DNA of 44,454 bases from an uncultured Rhodospirillales bacterium (lineage in GTDB: Bacteria > Pseudomonadota > Alphaproteobacteria > Acetobacterales > Acetobacteraceae): the NCBI GenBank assembly GCA_903881515.1, contig CAIRTN010000202.1:1-44454 (forward strand). The letters run 5' to 3'. The notes beneath the pieces were generated by a model that saw only the letters and a program-made list of their open reading frames with translations, made no database searches and had not been told where the DNA came from. The translations under genes were made by a program, and so were the position numbers. Below, piece by piece: positions 8,060 through 37,618 of this stretch (position 1 is the first letter of the stretch; every line of letters starts with the position of its first letter).

Positions 8060-8980
8060 ATGACAGCTTCGCCGCAGGCTGCCGGCATGCAAACCCGACC
8101 GCACGGCATCTGGCCGATCCTCTACGCATTCTTCGACGCCCAGGACCGGCTGGACCGCAGCGCGATGCGCCGGCAGACCGAGATCGTGGTCAAGGCCGGT
8201 AGCCATGGCATGGCGATTCTCGGCCTGGCCACCGAGGTCGGCAAACTGTCGCCGGCCGAACGGCGGCAGATGGTGGAATGGGCGGCAGAGGACCTGGCCG
8301 GGCGGCTGCCGCTCGCCGTGACGATCTTCGGCAACACGCCGGAGGAGCAGAGCGCGGCGGTGAGCCATGCCGCGGCCAACGGCGCCTCCTGGGTGGTGCT
8401 GCAACCGCCGCGCCTGCCGGGGATTTCAGAGGCCGAACTGATCCGCTTCTTCGGCGCGGTGATCGAGCGTGCGCCGATTCCGGCCGGCATCCAGAACGCG
8501 CCCGACCTGATCGGCATCGGCCTGGGGCCTGCGGGCATCGCCACGCTGGCGCGCAACCATGCCAATTTCACTGTGCTGAAGGGGGAGGGACCAGCGACGC
8601 TGATCGCGCGTATCGCCGCCGAGACCGGCGATCAGTTGGCGATCTTCAACGGCCGCGGCGGGCTGGAGCTGCCGGATAATCTGCGCGCCGGCTGCGCCGG
8701 GCTGATCCCTGCGCCGGACTGCTTCGAGGCGCAGGTGCAGATCTACGAGGCGATGCGCCGCGGCGACGAGGCGACTGCGGAACGGTTGTATCGCGACATC
8801 CTGCCGGCGATCGTGTTTGTGATGCAGTCGGTGGATCACCTGATCTGCTACGGCAAACGCCTCGTCGCCGCGCGGATGGGCATCGAAGTGTTCGAGCGCG
8901 GGCCGGGGCTGGCGGCGAACGCGTTCGGCCTGTCGGTGGTCGAACGCTTCGCTCGCGAACTGGGTCCCTACCCGGAGTAG
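8060..8980 (+). CDS. dihydrodipicolinate synthase/N-acetylneuraminate lyase superfamily protein
   Basis: 306-aa DapA-like TIM barrel; candidate Schiff-base Lys in FTVLKGEGP. Confidence 0.8.
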   Translation: MTASPQAAGMQTRPHGIWPILYAFFDAQDRLDRSAMRRQTEIVVKAGSHGMAILGLATEVGKLSPAERRQMVEWAAEDLAGRLPLAVTIFGNTPEEQSAAVSHAAANGASWVVLQPPRLPGISEAELIRFFGAVIERAPIPAGIQNAPDLIGIGLGPAGIATLARNHANFTVLKGEGPATLIARIAAETGDQLAIFNGRGGLELPDNLRAGCAGLIPAPDCFEAQVQIYEAMRRGDEATAERLYRDILPAIVFVMQSVDHLICYGKRLVAARMGIEVFERGPGLAANAFGLSVVERFARELGPYPE

Positions 8981-8993
8981 GGACCCACGTGCA

Positions 8994-14845: not shown

Positions 14846-16111
14846 ATGCGCGAGTTCGATCGGCCCGGCCCCATCATCGAAGGCGATCTGGCGCGAGAGA
14901 TCGACGAGTACGAGCTGCATGCCCTGGAATATGCCGGCATGATCAACGAGGCGCCGCGCCGTGGCGAGGCATCGCGACGTGACCGGCCGTCGCTGGCGAT
15001 CCCGCCGCGCCCGCCGGTGGTGCCCTCGATGCCCGCGCGCCGCGGCCGGGGCGCCACGGTCAATCCGCCGAACCGGTTCGAGAAGACCGAGGCCGCGCCG
15101 TTCGACGATGGCTGGAAAACGCTGGACGTCGACTTCACCGATCTGCCGCCGCTGCCGACCACGCTGACCCGCGATTCCGCGCGCAGCGTGATCACCTATA
15201 ACCAGTCGCCCGATGTCGGATTCGACCGGGCGATCAATCCGTATCGTGGCTGCGAGCATGGCTGCGTCTACTGCTATGCCCGGCCCAGCCATGCCTATCT
15301 CGGCTACTCGCCGGGGCTGGATTTCGAAACCAAGCTACTGTTCAAACCCGAAGTTGCCGACTTGCTGGAACGCGAATTACGCAAGCCCGGCTACGTGCCT
15401 CGCCCGATCGCGCTCGGCACCAATACCGACCCGTATCAGCCGGTGGACCGCACCTTGAAGCTAACCCGCGCGGTGCTGGAGGTTCTGGACCGGTTCAATC
15501 ATCCGGTCACCATCGTCACCAAATCCGCCGGCGTGCTGCGTGATGCCGACATTCTGCAATCCATGGCCAAGCGCAATCTGGTGCGGGTCTGCCTATCGGT
15601 CACCACGCTCGATCCGGCGTTGGCGCGGCGGATGGAACCGCGCGCCGCAACCCCGGCGCGCCGGCTGCAGGCGCTGGGCGAGCTGACCCGGCTGGGTATT
15701 CCCAGCGGGGTGATGGCGGCGCCGATGATCCCGGGGCTGAACGACGCCGAGCTGGAGAAGATCTTGGAATCCGCGTCACGCGCCGGGGCGGGATGGGGCG
15801 GCTACATCCTGCTGCGCCTGCCGCATGAGCTGAAGCAGATCTTCGAGACCTGGCTGCAGGAGCACTTTCCCGATCGCGCAAAGCGCGTGCTGGAACTGAT
15901 CCGCGAAACCCGGGCCGGCGCGCTGAGCGATGCGAAATACGGCCAGCGTTTCACCGGCACCGGGGTCTATGCCGACATGCTGGCCAAGCGGTTCACCCGG
16001 GCTGCAAAGCAATGGGGACTGGACCAGACAAGCTCGCTGGATTGCAGCCAGTTCCGCGTGCCGCCAACGGCCAGCCAGGGTTTTGCCGAGGCGCAGCTCT
16101 CACTGTTCTAA
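14846..16111 (+). CDS. PA0069/Rv2578c-like radical SAM protein (COG1533, SplB-like)
   Basis: NPYRGCEHGCVYCYARPSHAYLGYSPGLDFETKL (CxxxCxxC cluster motif), LGTNTDPYQP, VTIVTKS. Confidence 0.93.
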   Translation: MREFDRPGPIIEGDLAREIDEYELHALEYAGMINEAPRRGEASRRDRPSLAIPPRPPVVPSMPARRGRGATVNPPNRFEKTEAAPFDDGWKTLDVDFTDLPPLPTTLTRDSARSVITYNQSPDVGFDRAINPYRGCEHGCVYCYARPSHAYLGYSPGLDFETKLLFKPEVADLLERELRKPGYVPRPIALGTNTDPYQPVDRTLKLTRAVLEVLDRFNHPVTIVTKSAGVLRDADILQSMAKRNLVRVCLSVTTLDPALARRMEPRAATPARRLQALGELTRLGIPSGVMAAPMIPGLNDAELEKILESASRAGAGWGGYILLRLPHELKQIFETWLQEHFPDRAKRVLELIRETRAGALSDAKYGQRFTGTGVYADMLAKRFTRAAKQWGLDQTSSLDCSQFRVPPTASQGFAEAQLSLF

Positions 16112-16458
16112 TCGATGGGAATGAACAGTGAGTGCCGCATCTTGCCGTCGATCGCCTGCGAGCAATGGCCCTTGCCGTGGGTATCCTCGACCAGGAAGAT
16201 TTCGCCCGGCCCGATCACCCGCGTTTCGCCGTCGCTGACGGTGATCTTCACCGCGGCATCGAGGTTGACGATGTATTGCCGCCGCGGTGCGGGGTGCCAG
16301 TCGTAATCGTAGGTGCCGGGTGTTTCGCGGAAGATGATGCCGGTCGCCGGCATGCGGGCAGAGATCTTGCCGCCCGGGCCTTCGGCGGCCCAGTCGATCT
16401 CGATATCGCCCCAATGGGTTTCCCCGGCGTCGTCGACGTAGAGGTGGTGGATATGCAT
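16108..16458 (-). CDS. cupin-fold protein
   Basis: 116 aa; DYDWHPAPRRQYIVNLDA...GPGEIFLVEDTHGKGH. Confidence 0.75.
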   Translation of the reverse strand: MHIHHLYVDDAGETHWGDIEIDWAAEGPGGKISARMPATGIIFRETPGTYDYDWHPAPRRQYIVNLDAAVKITVSDGETRVIGPGEIFLVEDTHGKGHCSQAIDGKMRHSLFIPID

Positions 16459-33931: not shown

Positions 33932-34815
33932 CGCTGCAGCCTCGGGTTCAGCACGTCGCGCAACTGATCGCCCATCAGGTTGATCGCCACGATCGTCACC
34001 AGGAGCGCAATGCCGGGATAGAAGCTGATCCAGTATTTGCCCGACAGCATGTACTGATAGCCATTGGCGATCAGCAGCCCCAGCGACGGCTCGGTGATCG
34101 GCACGCCCAGGCCCAGGAACGACAACGTCGCCTCCAGCGTGATCGCGCGCGCCACCTGGATGGTGCCGATCACGATCAGCGGCGGCATGCAGTTCGGCAG
34201 CAGATGGCGAAACAGCACCCGCCATTGCGGCAAGGCGAGGCACTCCGCCGCCTCGATATATTCCCGTCGCCGCTCCACCAGTGCCGCCCCACGTGCCGTA
34301 CGCGCGTACCGCGCCCATTCCACGATCACCAGCGCCAGCATCACGTTGCCGACGCCCTTACCCAGGAACGCCAGGATCATCAGCGCCACCAGGATCGCCG
34401 GAAACGACAGCTGCAGATCGACCAGCCGCATGATCGCGGTTTCCACCCAGCCGCCGACATAGGCCGCCAGCAGCCCCAACGACGAGCCGACCACGCCGGC
34501 GATCACCGCCGAGCCCACGCCCACCGACAGCGAAATCCGCAGCCCGTACATGATGCCCGACAGCATGTCGCGCCCCTGGTCGTCGGTGCCGAGCCAGAAC
34601 ACCATGCCGGTCAGCGACTTCGCCCCCGGCGCCAGCCGCCCATCCATGATATCAAGCTGCGCCAGGTCATACGGGTTCTGCGGCGCCAGCAACGGCGCCA
34701 GCAGCGCCAGCAGCGCGACAATCACCACCACCACGAAGCCGATCACCGCCACCTTGCTGGCGGCGAACTCGCTCACGAACCGCCGGAACGGCGTCTCCTC
34801 CCGCACGCCGCTCAC
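33928..34815 (-). CDS. Dpp/Opp-type ABC transporter permease (DppC/OppC-like)
   Basis: GTDDQGRDMLSGIMYGLRISLSVG, EYIEAAECLALPQWRVLFRHLLPN. Confidence 0.93.
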   Translation of the reverse strand: MSGVREETPFRRFVSEFAASKVAVIGFVVVVIVALLALLAPLLAPQNPYDLAQLDIMDGRLAPGAKSLTGMVFWLGTDDQGRDMLSGIMYGLRISLSVGVGSAVIAGVVGSSLGLLAAYVGGWVETAIMRLVDLQLSFPAILVALMILAFLGKGVGNVMLALVIVEWARYARTARGAALVERRREYIEAAECLALPQWRVLFRHLLPNCMPPLIVIGTIQVARAITLEATLSFLGLGVPITEPSLGLLIANGYQYMLSGKYWISFYPGIALLVTIVAINLMGDQLRDVLNPRLQR

Positions 34816-35786
34816 TCCCGCCCGTCCAGCCGCACGCGCGGGTCAAGCACCGTGTACATCAGGTCCACCAGCAGGTTGATCGTCACGAACAGCACCACGA
34901 TCATCATCAGATAAGCAACGATCACCGGACGATCCAGCACGTTAATGCTGTCGATGATCAGCTTGCCCATGCCCGGCCAGGCGAACACGCTTTCCGTCAC
35001 CACCGCGAACGCCACCACCGAGCCGAACTCCAGCCCGATCACGGTCACCACCGGGATCATGATGTTCTTCATCACATGCACGAACAGCACGCGGGACGGG
35101 CTCAGCCCCTTGGCGCGCGCGAACTTCACATATTCCAGCCCGAGATTTTCCCGCACCCCCGCCCGCGTCAGCCGCAGCACCAGCGCGATATTGCCCAAGG
35201 CCAGATTGGTTGCCGGCATCACCATATGCGCCAGCCCATCGCGCGTCAGGAACGACCACTGGATGCCCAGGAACTCCGCCGTCGTGCCCCGCCCGGTACT
35301 CGGCAGCCAGCCCAACTGCACCGCGAACACCATGATCAGCATCAGCCCGACCCAGAAGGTCGGCAGCGAGAAGCCCAGGATCGAGCCGGCCATGATCGCC
35401 CGGCCGAGCAGCCCGTCCGGCTTCAGCCCGGCATACAGTCCCAGCGGTATCCCCACGATCACCGACAGCGCCACCGCGGTGAACGCCAGTTCCATCGTCG
35501 CCGGAAACCGCCCGCCGATCAGCCGCAAAGCCGGCTCGTTGAACACGAACGACTTGCCCAGATCGCCCTGCACCACGCCGCCGAGGAAATGCAGGTACTG
35601 CTCCCATAACGGCTTATCCAGCCCGAACGCCGCAATCACCCGCAGCCGCTCGGCCTGGTCGGCATCGGGCGAAATCAGGATCTCCACCGGATCGCCGATC
35701 ACATTGACGCCGACGAACACGATGACCGTCATCGCCAGCATTACGAAAACCGCCTGCACCAGGCGACGCAACAGCCAGGTGGTCAT
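34812..35786 (-). CDS. Dpp/Opp-type ABC transporter permease (DppB/OppB-like)
   Basis: MTTWLLRRLVQAVFVMLAMTVIVF, ENLGLEYVKFARAKGLSPSRVLFVHVMKN. Confidence 0.93.
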   Translation of the reverse strand: MTTWLLRRLVQAVFVMLAMTVIVFVGVNVIGDPVEILISPDADQAERLRVIAAFGLDKPLWEQYLHFLGGVVQGDLGKSFVFNEPALRLIGGRFPATMELAFTAVALSVIVGIPLGLYAGLKPDGLLGRAIMAGSILGFSLPTFWVGLMLIMVFAVQLGWLPSTGRGTTAEFLGIQWSFLTRDGLAHMVMPATNLALGNIALVLRLTRAGVRENLGLEYVKFARAKGLSPSRVLFVHVMKNIMIPVVTVIGLEFGSVVAFAVVTESVFAWPGMGKLIIDSINVLDRPVIVAYLMMIVVLFVTINLLVDLMYTVLDPRVRLDGRE

Positions 35787-35819
35787 GCTGCGCCCGCCTG
35801 TGTTCCGTAAAGGCAAGCA

Positions 35820-35943
35820 GTTCTTTTTGTGAACAAAAAGAACCAAAAAAACTTTTTCAATTCGGCGTAGCTGCCCGCCGCAGCTCCGCGCCGGAGGCAG
35901 CCGGACAAAAGTTTTTCTGCTCCTTTTTTTTCAAAAAAAGGAG
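35820..35943. repeat. composite inverted-repeat element: two terminal 11-bp hairpins flanking a GC-rich hairpin core
   Basis: gttctttttgt-GA-acaaaaagaac at 35820-35843 and ctccttttttt-TC-aaaaaaaggag at 35920-35943; ends align as 37-nt inverted repeats; core gctgcc(35870)...ggcagc(35901) enclosing ctccg-cgc-cggag. Confidence 0.8.
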
Positions 35944-35976
35944 TGCTTCCTACCTGCCGACCCCAAAGCATCGTCA

Positions 35977-37536
35977 TCACTGCGGCCGCAAATCCATCAC
36001 CCGGGTATCCTCGTCCGCCCGCGCGGCATAAGTCAGCCCGGCCTTCATCGCCCAGATGTTCTTCTGCACATGCAGCGGGATCACCGCGACATCGTCCATC
36101 GCCACCTTCGTCGCCGCGATCACCACCTTCTCGCGCGCCGCGTCGTCGCCCGTGGTCATCGCCTTGTCCACCAGGGCATCGAAGGTCGGATTGGAATAGC
36201 GCCCGCGGTTTACCGCGCCCCAGCCTTTCGCCGGCGAGAAGGTATAGATCAGCGAGCGCAGCGGGTTCGAAGCCTCGGTGAAGCCCCAGCCCAGCAGATA
36301 CGCCGCAAATTCCTGCTTGTTGGTCCGGCCGACATAGTTCGGCCAGGTGATCGCATCCACCGACGTCTGCACCCCGATCCGCGTCCACATCTGCCCGATC
36401 GCTTGGATGATCTTGCCGTCGTTGACGTAGCGATCGTTCGGCCCGTGCAGGGTGATGCGGAAGCCGTTCGGGAAGCCGGCCTGCGCCAGCAGCGCCTTGG
36501 CCTTGGCGACGTCATAGACCGGCGCGTCATGGCTCGGGTCGTAGCCCCAGCTGCCCTTGGCGACGAACTGCCCGGCCGGATAGGCCGCGCCCTCCATCAC
36601 CCGATCGACGATCGCTGGCCGGTTGATCGCGATGCTCAGCGCCTCGCGCACCCGCACGTCGTTCAGCGGGTTCTTCTCCAGCGTCTCGCCGTTCGGCCCG
36701 GTGATGAACACCGGCGTGCCGGTGCGCGAGTGGTCGAGCCACAGATAGATGATGCGTTGCGAGGCGATCTCGGCCAGCGCCACGCGCTTGTCGCTCTTCA
36801 GCCGCGCCGCATCGGCGGTCGGCACGAACTCGATGAACTGCACATCGCCCGCCAGCAGCGCGGCGGTGCGCGCGCCGTCATTGGCGATCATCCGGATCGA
36901 GATATGTTGCCAATGCGGCTTCGGGCCCCACCACGCATCGTTGCGCTCAAGCTCGGCGCGGTCGCCGTTCTTGTAAGACACCAGCCGGTAGGCGCCAGTG
37001 CCAATCGCGTTCTTGCCGGAATTGAAATCCTCGGTGGCCGGATTCGGCCCCAACCCCTTGGGAATGATGAAGATGTTGCTCATGTCCACCGGCAGGATCG
37101 GATAGATCGCCGCGGTCTTCATCCGAATCGTATAGGGGTCGGGCACTTCCATCGCGATCACCGTCTTGGTGTAGATCGCGAAGCTGCCCGGCGAGTTCAC
37201 CACTTTCGGGATACGGTCGAAATTATAGACGACATCGGCGGCGGTGAACGGCGAGCCGTCGTGGAACTTGACGTCCTGGCGCAGTTTCACTTCCCAAGTC
37301 GTGTCGTCCAGCAGCTTCCACGAGGTCGCGAGGCCTGGGATGGGATTGGACTGCGTATCGCGTTCGACCAGGCGGTCGAAGATATGCAGGTCCAGCGTCT
37401 CGTTGGGGTTGAAGGTGTGATAATGCGGATCGACGCTGGTCGGCGCCGAGGACATCGCCATCGTCACGGTCTGTGCGTGCGCGGCGCCTGCGCTGAGCAG
37501 AACCGCAACGGCCAAAGCCTTGGATACGCGGAGCAT
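35977..37536 (-). CDS. Dpp/Opp-type ABC transporter substrate-binding protein (SBP_bac_5)
   Basis: Signal peptide MLRVSKALAVAVLLSAGAAHAQ; SVDPHYHTFNPNETLDLHIFDRLVERD, LRQDVKFHDGSPFTAADVVYNFDR. Confidence 0.93.
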   Translation of the reverse strand: MLRVSKALAVAVLLSAGAAHAQTVTMAMSSAPTSVDPHYHTFNPNETLDLHIFDRLVERDTQSNPIPGLATSWKLLDDTTWEVKLRQDVKFHDGSPFTAADVVYNFDRIPKVVNSPGSFAIYTKTVIAMEVPDPYTIRMKTAAIYPILPVDMSNIFIIPKGLGPNPATEDFNSGKNAIGTGAYRLVSYKNGDRAELERNDAWWGPKPHWQHISIRMIANDGARTAALLAGDVQFIEFVPTADAARLKSDKRVALAEIASQRIIYLWLDHSRTGTPVFITGPNGETLEKNPLNDVRVREALSIAINRPAIVDRVMEGAAYPAGQFVAKGSWGYDPSHDAPVYDVAKAKALLAQAGFPNGFRITLHGPNDRYVNDGKIIQAIGQMWTRIGVQTSVDAITWPNYVGRTNKQEFAAYLLGWGFTEASNPLRSLIYTFSPAKGWGAVNRGRYSNPTFDALVDKAMTTGDDAAREKVVIAATKVAMDDVAVIPLHVQKNIWAMKAGLTYAARADEDTRVMDLRPQ

Positions 37537-37580
37537 CAGTCCTCCCCCCCGGAGTTGCTGCCCCTTAGTAACGCATGAAA

Positions 37581-37608
37581 CCGCGCGGGCGAAGTGCCAC
37601 CCGCGCGG
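37581..37608 (-). terminator. hairpin downstream of the DEAD-box helicase, possible intrinsic terminator
   Basis: Perfect 9-bp stem ccgcgcggg-N10-cccgcgcgg; followed on the minus strand by only TTTC. Confidence 0.5.
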
Positions 37609-37618
37609 TATCGTGCAA

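Follow-up and report, generated by a model that had tools for sequence, protein, structure and literature searches.

EFAR repeats of Enterococcus faecalis are dispersed elements, similar in length to those reported here, that lie near stop codons and are described as bidirectional terminators. Correia/NEMIS, ERIC and YPAL elements are imperfect palindromes of ~100–170 bp that are intergenic and transcribed. We know of no triplex-coded ends in EFAR and of no triplex code in Correia/NEMIS, ERIC or YPAL. A third strand is familiar from the ENE/MALAT1 triple helices of eukaryotes and viruses, in which a U-rich strand sits on a U/A hairpin near the RNA 3′ end. Set side by side by description, EFAR and the repeat family of Acetobacteraceae studied here share 3′-end placement and a central hairpin with T-tracts. 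The Correia-type elements are likewise imperfect palindromes in intergenic DNA, with ends unlike those of our family, and ENE/MALAT1 differ in the linker; in the Acetobacteraceae family we infer the triple helix solely from covariation.

BoxC/TM_ECO, of E. coli and others, is the best-studied intrastrand-triplex repeat, and it had no promoter or terminator activity (PMC4666352); some of its copies form inverted pairs, in which a type A unit is always combined with the unlike type B. The known GC-rich motif (BoxC/PIT) is conserved but gave no functional signal, which is why it has stayed in question whether intrastrand triplexes do anything in bacteria. Our family shares with BoxC/PIT/TM_ECO the Y-loop-R-loop-R′ mirror order (PMC4666352, main text) and a multi-copy, intergenic distribution: three consecutive blocks lie on one strand, a Watson–Crick hairpin and a mirror third block, separated by short loops (1–6 nt). 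It differs in being AT-rich, with arms of 5–8, a 4-bp Watson–Crick base beneath the triplex part, an arrangement mostly in inverted pairs with a core, and a location at gene 3′ ends. The T/A-rich ends do not match the BoxC/TM_ECO consensus (CCCTCNCCC...GGGNGAGGG...GGGNGAGGG). The main text of PMC4666352 is centred on G/C and reports conservation; in our family stem and third strand change together from genus to genus, a covariation that we did not find reported in that main text, which also has no mention of Acidiphilium, Acetobacter or Gluconacetobacter. Anatomically, the family is an AT-rich relative of the BoxC/PIT intrastrand-triplex motif, arranged in inverted pairs whose ends are usually unlike.

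The window element lies at 35820–35943 of the window (the whole 44,454-nt stretch analysed), inside a peptide-transporter operon, where it separates the gene for the solute-binding protein from that for the permease (Table 1). Its sequence and coordinates agree with a first-pass annotation, and it reaches a few bases further on both sides (AAGGCAAGCA and TGCTTCC). A 42-nt imperfect inverted repeat (35815–35856 and 35907–35948, 83% complementary, 50 nt between arms) is by far the longest short-range inverted repeat of the window. Both terminal 11-bp stems are perfect. The 30/37 identity of the two ends reported in the annotation, with paired differences at positions 1/24, 3/22 and 10/15, is borne out by the sequence; the seventh difference is a single base in the right-end A-tract, which reads mostly AAAAAAA in other host-genome copies and here breaks the matching to its T7 arm described below (AGAAAAA). 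The GC-rich core, proposed in the annotation to fold separately, can form a hairpin and is predicted to fold on both strands. Chance is excluded by three observations: AAAAAGTTTTT matches number 3 against 0.03 expected in shuffles, the whole element folds with z = −4.4 (RNA) or −5.5 (DNA) relative to shuffles, and the host genome holds 23 near-full copies. Rfam returned one tRNA elsewhere in the window above the gathering cutoff and sub-threshold matches only at the element. The minimum-energy fold of the window copy is a cloverleaf, yet its closing AAGCA/TGCTT stem is barely supported across copies (the first pair alone clearly, z 4.2; all five pairs in 9/155 elements), and we discarded the cloverleaf as a conserved fold.

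Three other hairpins were noted in the window: a 17-bp GC-rich inverted repeat at 37573–37616 (88% complementary, 10-nt loop, no obvious T-tract) between the DEAD-box helicase and solute-binding-protein genes, a perfect 11-bp hairpin at 8961–8987 (TGGGTCCCTAC) and a 16-bp hairpin at 16093–16138 (88%).

Table 1. Parts of the window element and the genes on either side (window coordinates).
Feature	Position	Strand	Observation
Outer flank AAGGCAAGCA	35810..35819		Purine-rich and part of the repeat; other copies have AAGGSAAGNN next to their GTTC hairpin; purine-rich flank family-wide
Left terminal hairpin, GTTC-TTTTTGT-GA-ACAAAAA-GAAC	35820..35843	+	Base of 4 bp plus 7-bp arm; perfect inverted repeat; identical in most other host-genome copies
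Left tract: linker C, A-tract AAAAAAA (35845-35851), CTTTT	35844..35856	+	Length 7 equals the 7-bp arm; arm T or G takes tract A, as elsewhere in the family
Core	35857..35906		Variable, GC-rich, hairpin-capable; folds in both strands
Right tract: linker C, AGAAAAA, CTTTT	35907..35919	minus	One base unmatched to the T7 arm
Right terminal hairpin, CTCC-TTTTTTT-GA-AAAAAAA-GGAG	35920..35943	minus	Perfect inverted repeat; CTCC type recurs in other host-genome copies
Outer flank TGCTTCC	35944..35950		TGCTT beside the CTCC hairpin in nearly all host-genome copies
Upstream gene, family 5 solute-binding protein (peptide ABC transporter)	35977..37536	minus	PF00496, E 2.6e-88
Downstream gene, ABC permease (BPD_transp_1)	34812..35786	minus	PF00528, E 4.7e-37; start set by codon usage

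A blastn-type search adds many half copies to the near-full copies in the host genome (G000), and relatives occur across Acetobacteraceae, so the element is neither single-copy nor without homologues. Host-genome copies typically carry GTTCTTTTTGTGAACAAAAAGAAC-CAAAAAAACTTTT at one end and, next to a tract of like kind, CTCCTTTTTTT-N(1-2)-AAAAAAAGGAG at the other, around a core that varies. A strict half-end pattern (hairpin, short linker, AAAAACTTTT) has 59 matches in the host, 172 in its congener G001, 122 in G020 and 182 in G033; read backwards as a control it has 0. Named hosts are Acidiphilium rubrum, Acidiphilium sp. PA, Roseomonas sp. GC11, Gluconacetobacter liquefaciens, Nguyenibacter, Pseudoroseomonas and Rhodovarius, and many uncultured Acetobacteraceae also carry the family. 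Counts run from 10 to 349 in seven host genomes, with up to several hundred ends per genome; the few matches from AT-rich gut bacteria look like chance and were dropped from most statistics by a G+C filter. A second subfamily (TTCTTTTTTGAAAAAAAGAA, A6 tract) coexists with the window type in the host genome (for example, C2:21185, C36:9396 and C57:11896). Seven host copies lie inside a larger repeat that contains GCGCGAATTTAAGCCAGTGAAGAC and ends in GGCCAGGGCTCTGCCCC; this larger repeat seems to be a younger family in its own right, with the element as its passenger. A search for a plasmid or phage origin, weakened by its low-complexity filter, found no match. The first-pass annotation had recognized no named family, and neither the Rfam RNA families nor the literature searched contain a match.

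Family members are intergenic repeats of ~110–270 bp, formed by two inverted ~35-nt end modules that face each other around a variable core. Each half-end runs from a purine-rich flank (AAGGAAG-like) through a hairpin N-TTC-arm(n)-loop-arm(n)′-GAA-N′, a linker C, an n-base tract, CTTTT and a weakly conserved GTCCGTTTGG into the core. The apical loop is 2 nt (effectively 4 nt), and the spacer GAANC comprises 5 nt, of which four may additionally pair within the base stem. In our first locus set, part of which was chosen by a stem-containing pattern, 320/372 A-run-CTTTT motifs directly follow a stem of 8 pairs or more, compared with 4/227 reversed motifs. Across genera, cores are most often 45–46 nt long, and smaller groups cluster near 58 and 107. 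Cores are structured (mean folding z −2.0 for 118 elements against −0.3 for random 45-mers), and CTTTT pairs with AAAAG in 61% of their minimum-energy folds. The two ends of one element are unlike more often than chance (15/68 alike, 29 expected), although not in every genome. Both end types of the window element recur in other host-genome copies; its three paired differences reflect two fixed end types and are not independent compensatory events at this locus. Covariation within the locus, as first proposed, is lost in that form, but compensatory stem changes do occur across copies and genera. Together with end modules that have changed less than the intergenic DNA around them, these uphold the proposal of selection for hairpin structure.

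The strongest signal, absent from the first-pass annotation, is a coupling of the A-tract to its stem by what reads as a triplex code. Arm and tract are equal in length and match in base, as in T5/A5, T6/A6, T7/A7, TTTTCT/AAAAGA, TTTTTCT/AAAAAGA, TTTCTT/AAAGAA and TTTTTGT/AAAAAAA. Equal lengths were counted 23 times for 5, 277 for 6, 182 for 7 and 14 for 8, and a tract of 6 goes with a stem of 10 in 262/265 cases, a tract of 7 with a stem of 11 in 120/124. Over all fetched loci, with the tract unconstrained, an arm T is answered at the same position by A (2915/2965), C by G (92/96) and G by A (101/102); shared descent is the remaining weakness, for with only some seven to ten end types, independent events are fewer than these counts. 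We put the matching to prediction tests in 398 Acetobacteraceae genomes, leaving the tract as N. For arm TTCTTT, the mirror (triplex) prediction AAGAAA was found in 4/5 matches, against the Watson–Crick prediction AAAGAA. Arm TTTCTT has the predicted G at tract position 4 in 137/138 among the matches listed (38 genomes, 15 genera), the lone exception being an overlapping palindromic match. For arm TTTTTGT, strict mirror symmetry predicts C at tract position 6 and the triplex code A; nearly all of the matches listed have A, a few G or T, and never C. A tract A opposite an arm G is a T on the other strand, which gives the T.CG triad of triplex chemistry.

Each end behaves separately. Among 132 elements with unlike arms, the tract fits its own arm at 229/264 ends and the arm of the other end at 37/264, so pairing between ends fails to explain the coupling; unequal lengths, usual among the ends of an element, also contradict an A-tract paired to the T-tract of the opposite end. 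Antiparallel pairing of the tract with its own arm is ruled out by C-containing arms, where antiparallel Watson–Crick complementarity fits 0/61 and the parallel complement 51. A direct-repeat copy of the 3′ arm would not give TTCTTT/AAGAAA or TTTTTGT/AAAAAAA, strict mirror symmetry fails for an arm G, and a protein reading double-stranded DNA would have no reason to impose mirror symmetry. The parallel matching of stem and tract is, as judged from sequence, a Hoogsteen triplex code.

Placement relative to genes was compiled from fetched stretches of several genomes. Full elements lie in 37 convergent, 54 tandem and 11 divergent gaps, out of 130, 467 and 225 such gaps, respectively, with a length of 80 bp or more; elements thus favour gene 3′ ends and are depleted between divergent genes, as in a bidirectional terminator and in agreement with the terminator-like placement first suggested for the window copy. 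Most start within about 15 nt of a stop codon (medians to the hairpin of 7 nt in G033, 10 nt in a mixed set and 17.5 nt in G001, the three best-sampled convergent sets), and only 3/256 hairpin clusters fall inside genes. In convergent pairs of G033 the element often fills the gap (five examples), with only 6–10 nt from each stop codon to the outer hairpin; here the element edge may itself provide the stop codon.

What was observed directly is the copy number, the anatomy, the covariation, the bias toward gene 3′ ends, the structure of the cores and the conservation of the ends between species. As their best explanation we propose a dispersed bidirectional, terminator-like 3′-end module with triplex-capable ends, in which triplex formation and termination would both take part; we regard this as about an even call. 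The tract would act as the third strand, in the purine motif (class II) when read hairpin-first and in the pyrimidine motif (class IV) on the other strand. A transcript arriving from either side would meet the core hairpin closed by CTTTT/AAAAG and then a T-tract, as at a terminator, and the hairpin-plus-third-strand ends would cap or insulate the site. At the window, partial termination or protection of the 3′ end would favour the binding-protein mRNA of the peptide-transporter operon. Termination at the element is suggested by its position and structure; a simple scan of the window core for a strong intrinsic terminator found none. Other points that tell against the proposal are the mere 61% of cores closed by CTTTT/AAAAG, the lack of terminator activity in BoxC/TM_ECO and the code-breaking base in the right tract of the window element. 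By a crude helix calculation, moreover, the 1-nt linker can hardly lead the third strand past four intact base pairs in most geometries tried, and partial opening of the base stem would probably be needed. Single halves in tandem gene pairs show none of the orientation bias expected of a simple RNA terminator (49 T-sense and 46 A-sense; 35 and 31 in a second count), nor is there a clear one for unlike ends in tandem genes (29 versus 21), and the absence of bias argues for a role that is symmetric or exerted at the DNA level. A transcript that ends in the T-tract never includes the distal hairpin; one and the same molecule therefore cannot be terminated there and also form an RNA triplex.

The first-pass annotation had also suggested a mobile element of REP or MITE type, and this alternative survives best, although we consider it unlikely. 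Here the ends would be single- or double-stranded DNA substrates of a transposase acting in trans and recognizing the hairpin-plus-third-strand fold, and the 3′-end bias would arise because insertions in promoters and operons were removed. Short, non-coding, multi-copy and strictly intergenic repeats with terminal inverted repeats and species-specific end types are what such an element would produce, and the dispersed intergenic family part of the suggestion stands. Gain at the window site also speaks for it: in relatives from several genera the two transporter genes adjoin or are separated by no more than about 60 nt, and the element is missing there, which indicates that it was gained in the host lineage; the window gap minus the element is 54 nt, close to the 58 nt of G001. 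Three host-genome copies at different loci (two on C181, one on C112) and with different cores have in common a ~29-nt insertion (GCAGGGCGACGGCGAAGACGCCGCGCCGG-like) that interrupts the CTCC hairpin at its loop, so a variant was copied to several sites. MITE-type mobility is nevertheless unproven. Target-site duplications were looked for at the copies and none was recognized, the flanks being themselves repeat-like (purine/pyrimidine rich) with no clean empty site. In a limited sample of 10 open reading frames between facing ends none encodes a transposase; they are DUF2147, ABC ATPase, DUF2272, GyrB or unassigned, and this sample yields no autonomous parent element. One of these, with DNA gyrase B domains, lies between two facing half elements at L158:3910-6099 and is probably a neighbour by coincidence. 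REPINs, whose REP units are served by RAYT, are similar in placing two inverted palindromic units in an intergenic repeat; they differ in that our family consensus lacks the GTAG/CGTC tag, and G000, G001 and G020, two of these three genomes being high-copy, contain no PF01797 (RAYT, the REP transposase family), on which ground we rejected a RAYT-driven REPIN. A. rubrum and Acidiphilium sp. PA are about 90% identical, and in the few loci that could be compared their elements occupy the same sites, with no difference in presence or absence. Identity between the two species is 130/133 in end modules (four measured), 264/326 in the surrounding intergenic DNA and 2562/2738 in coding sequence. This points to selection or gene conversion on the ends, the core being free.

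An RNA triple helix at mRNA 3′ ends, in which the U-tract would occupy the major groove of the U/A hairpin that follows it (U.A-U, C+.G-C) and block 3′ exonucleases as in ENE/MALAT1, is improbable in our estimation. The 3′-UTR location, the class IV order on the T-sense strand (third strand, pyrimidine strand, purine strand) and a code that includes T opposite a C-G inversion all suit it, and the main text of PMC4666352 states that pyrimidine-motif intrastrand triplexes can form in RNA. It sits poorly with single halves that lack orientation bias, and a strand-specific wobble comparison to tell RNA from DNA gave no clear preference (7 versus 12). The strain on the linker, which the helix calculation shows for the T-sense strand, is a further obstacle. 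That ordinary hairpins alone matter, with stem–tract coupling a historical by-product of a handful of end types amplified by copying, is very unlikely: a few types do dominate and copies within a genome are alike, but many genera show the coupling, at several different positions and in four lengths, and the two unlike ends of a single element each show it on their own; the frequency of the GT type differs strongly between G033 and G149 of one genus, and copying alone would not yield the asymmetry by which C takes G but G takes A.

A stronger claim can be put forward tentatively, with somewhat less than even confidence: that the ends form genuine triple helices in the cell, kept by selection across a bacterial family, for example as an RNA U.A-U cap at mRNA 3′ ends or as a DNA triplex recognized in transposition. 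If true, this would be a covariation-supported triple-stranded structure at hundreds of dispersed bacterial loci. Evolution has in effect run the mutational test, in that a change in the stem is followed by a change in the tract according to the putative triplex code, in length and in base and at each end separately; such evolutionary evidence for a triple helix is rare in bacteria. Acidiphilium rubrum and Roseomonas sp. GC11, both cultured, thereby allow the question to be put to a direct test. The element appears to represent a family-wide 3′-end repeat of Acetobacteraceae, absent from the literature and RNA families searched, and is useful for annotation and for reading operon structure in these bacteria.
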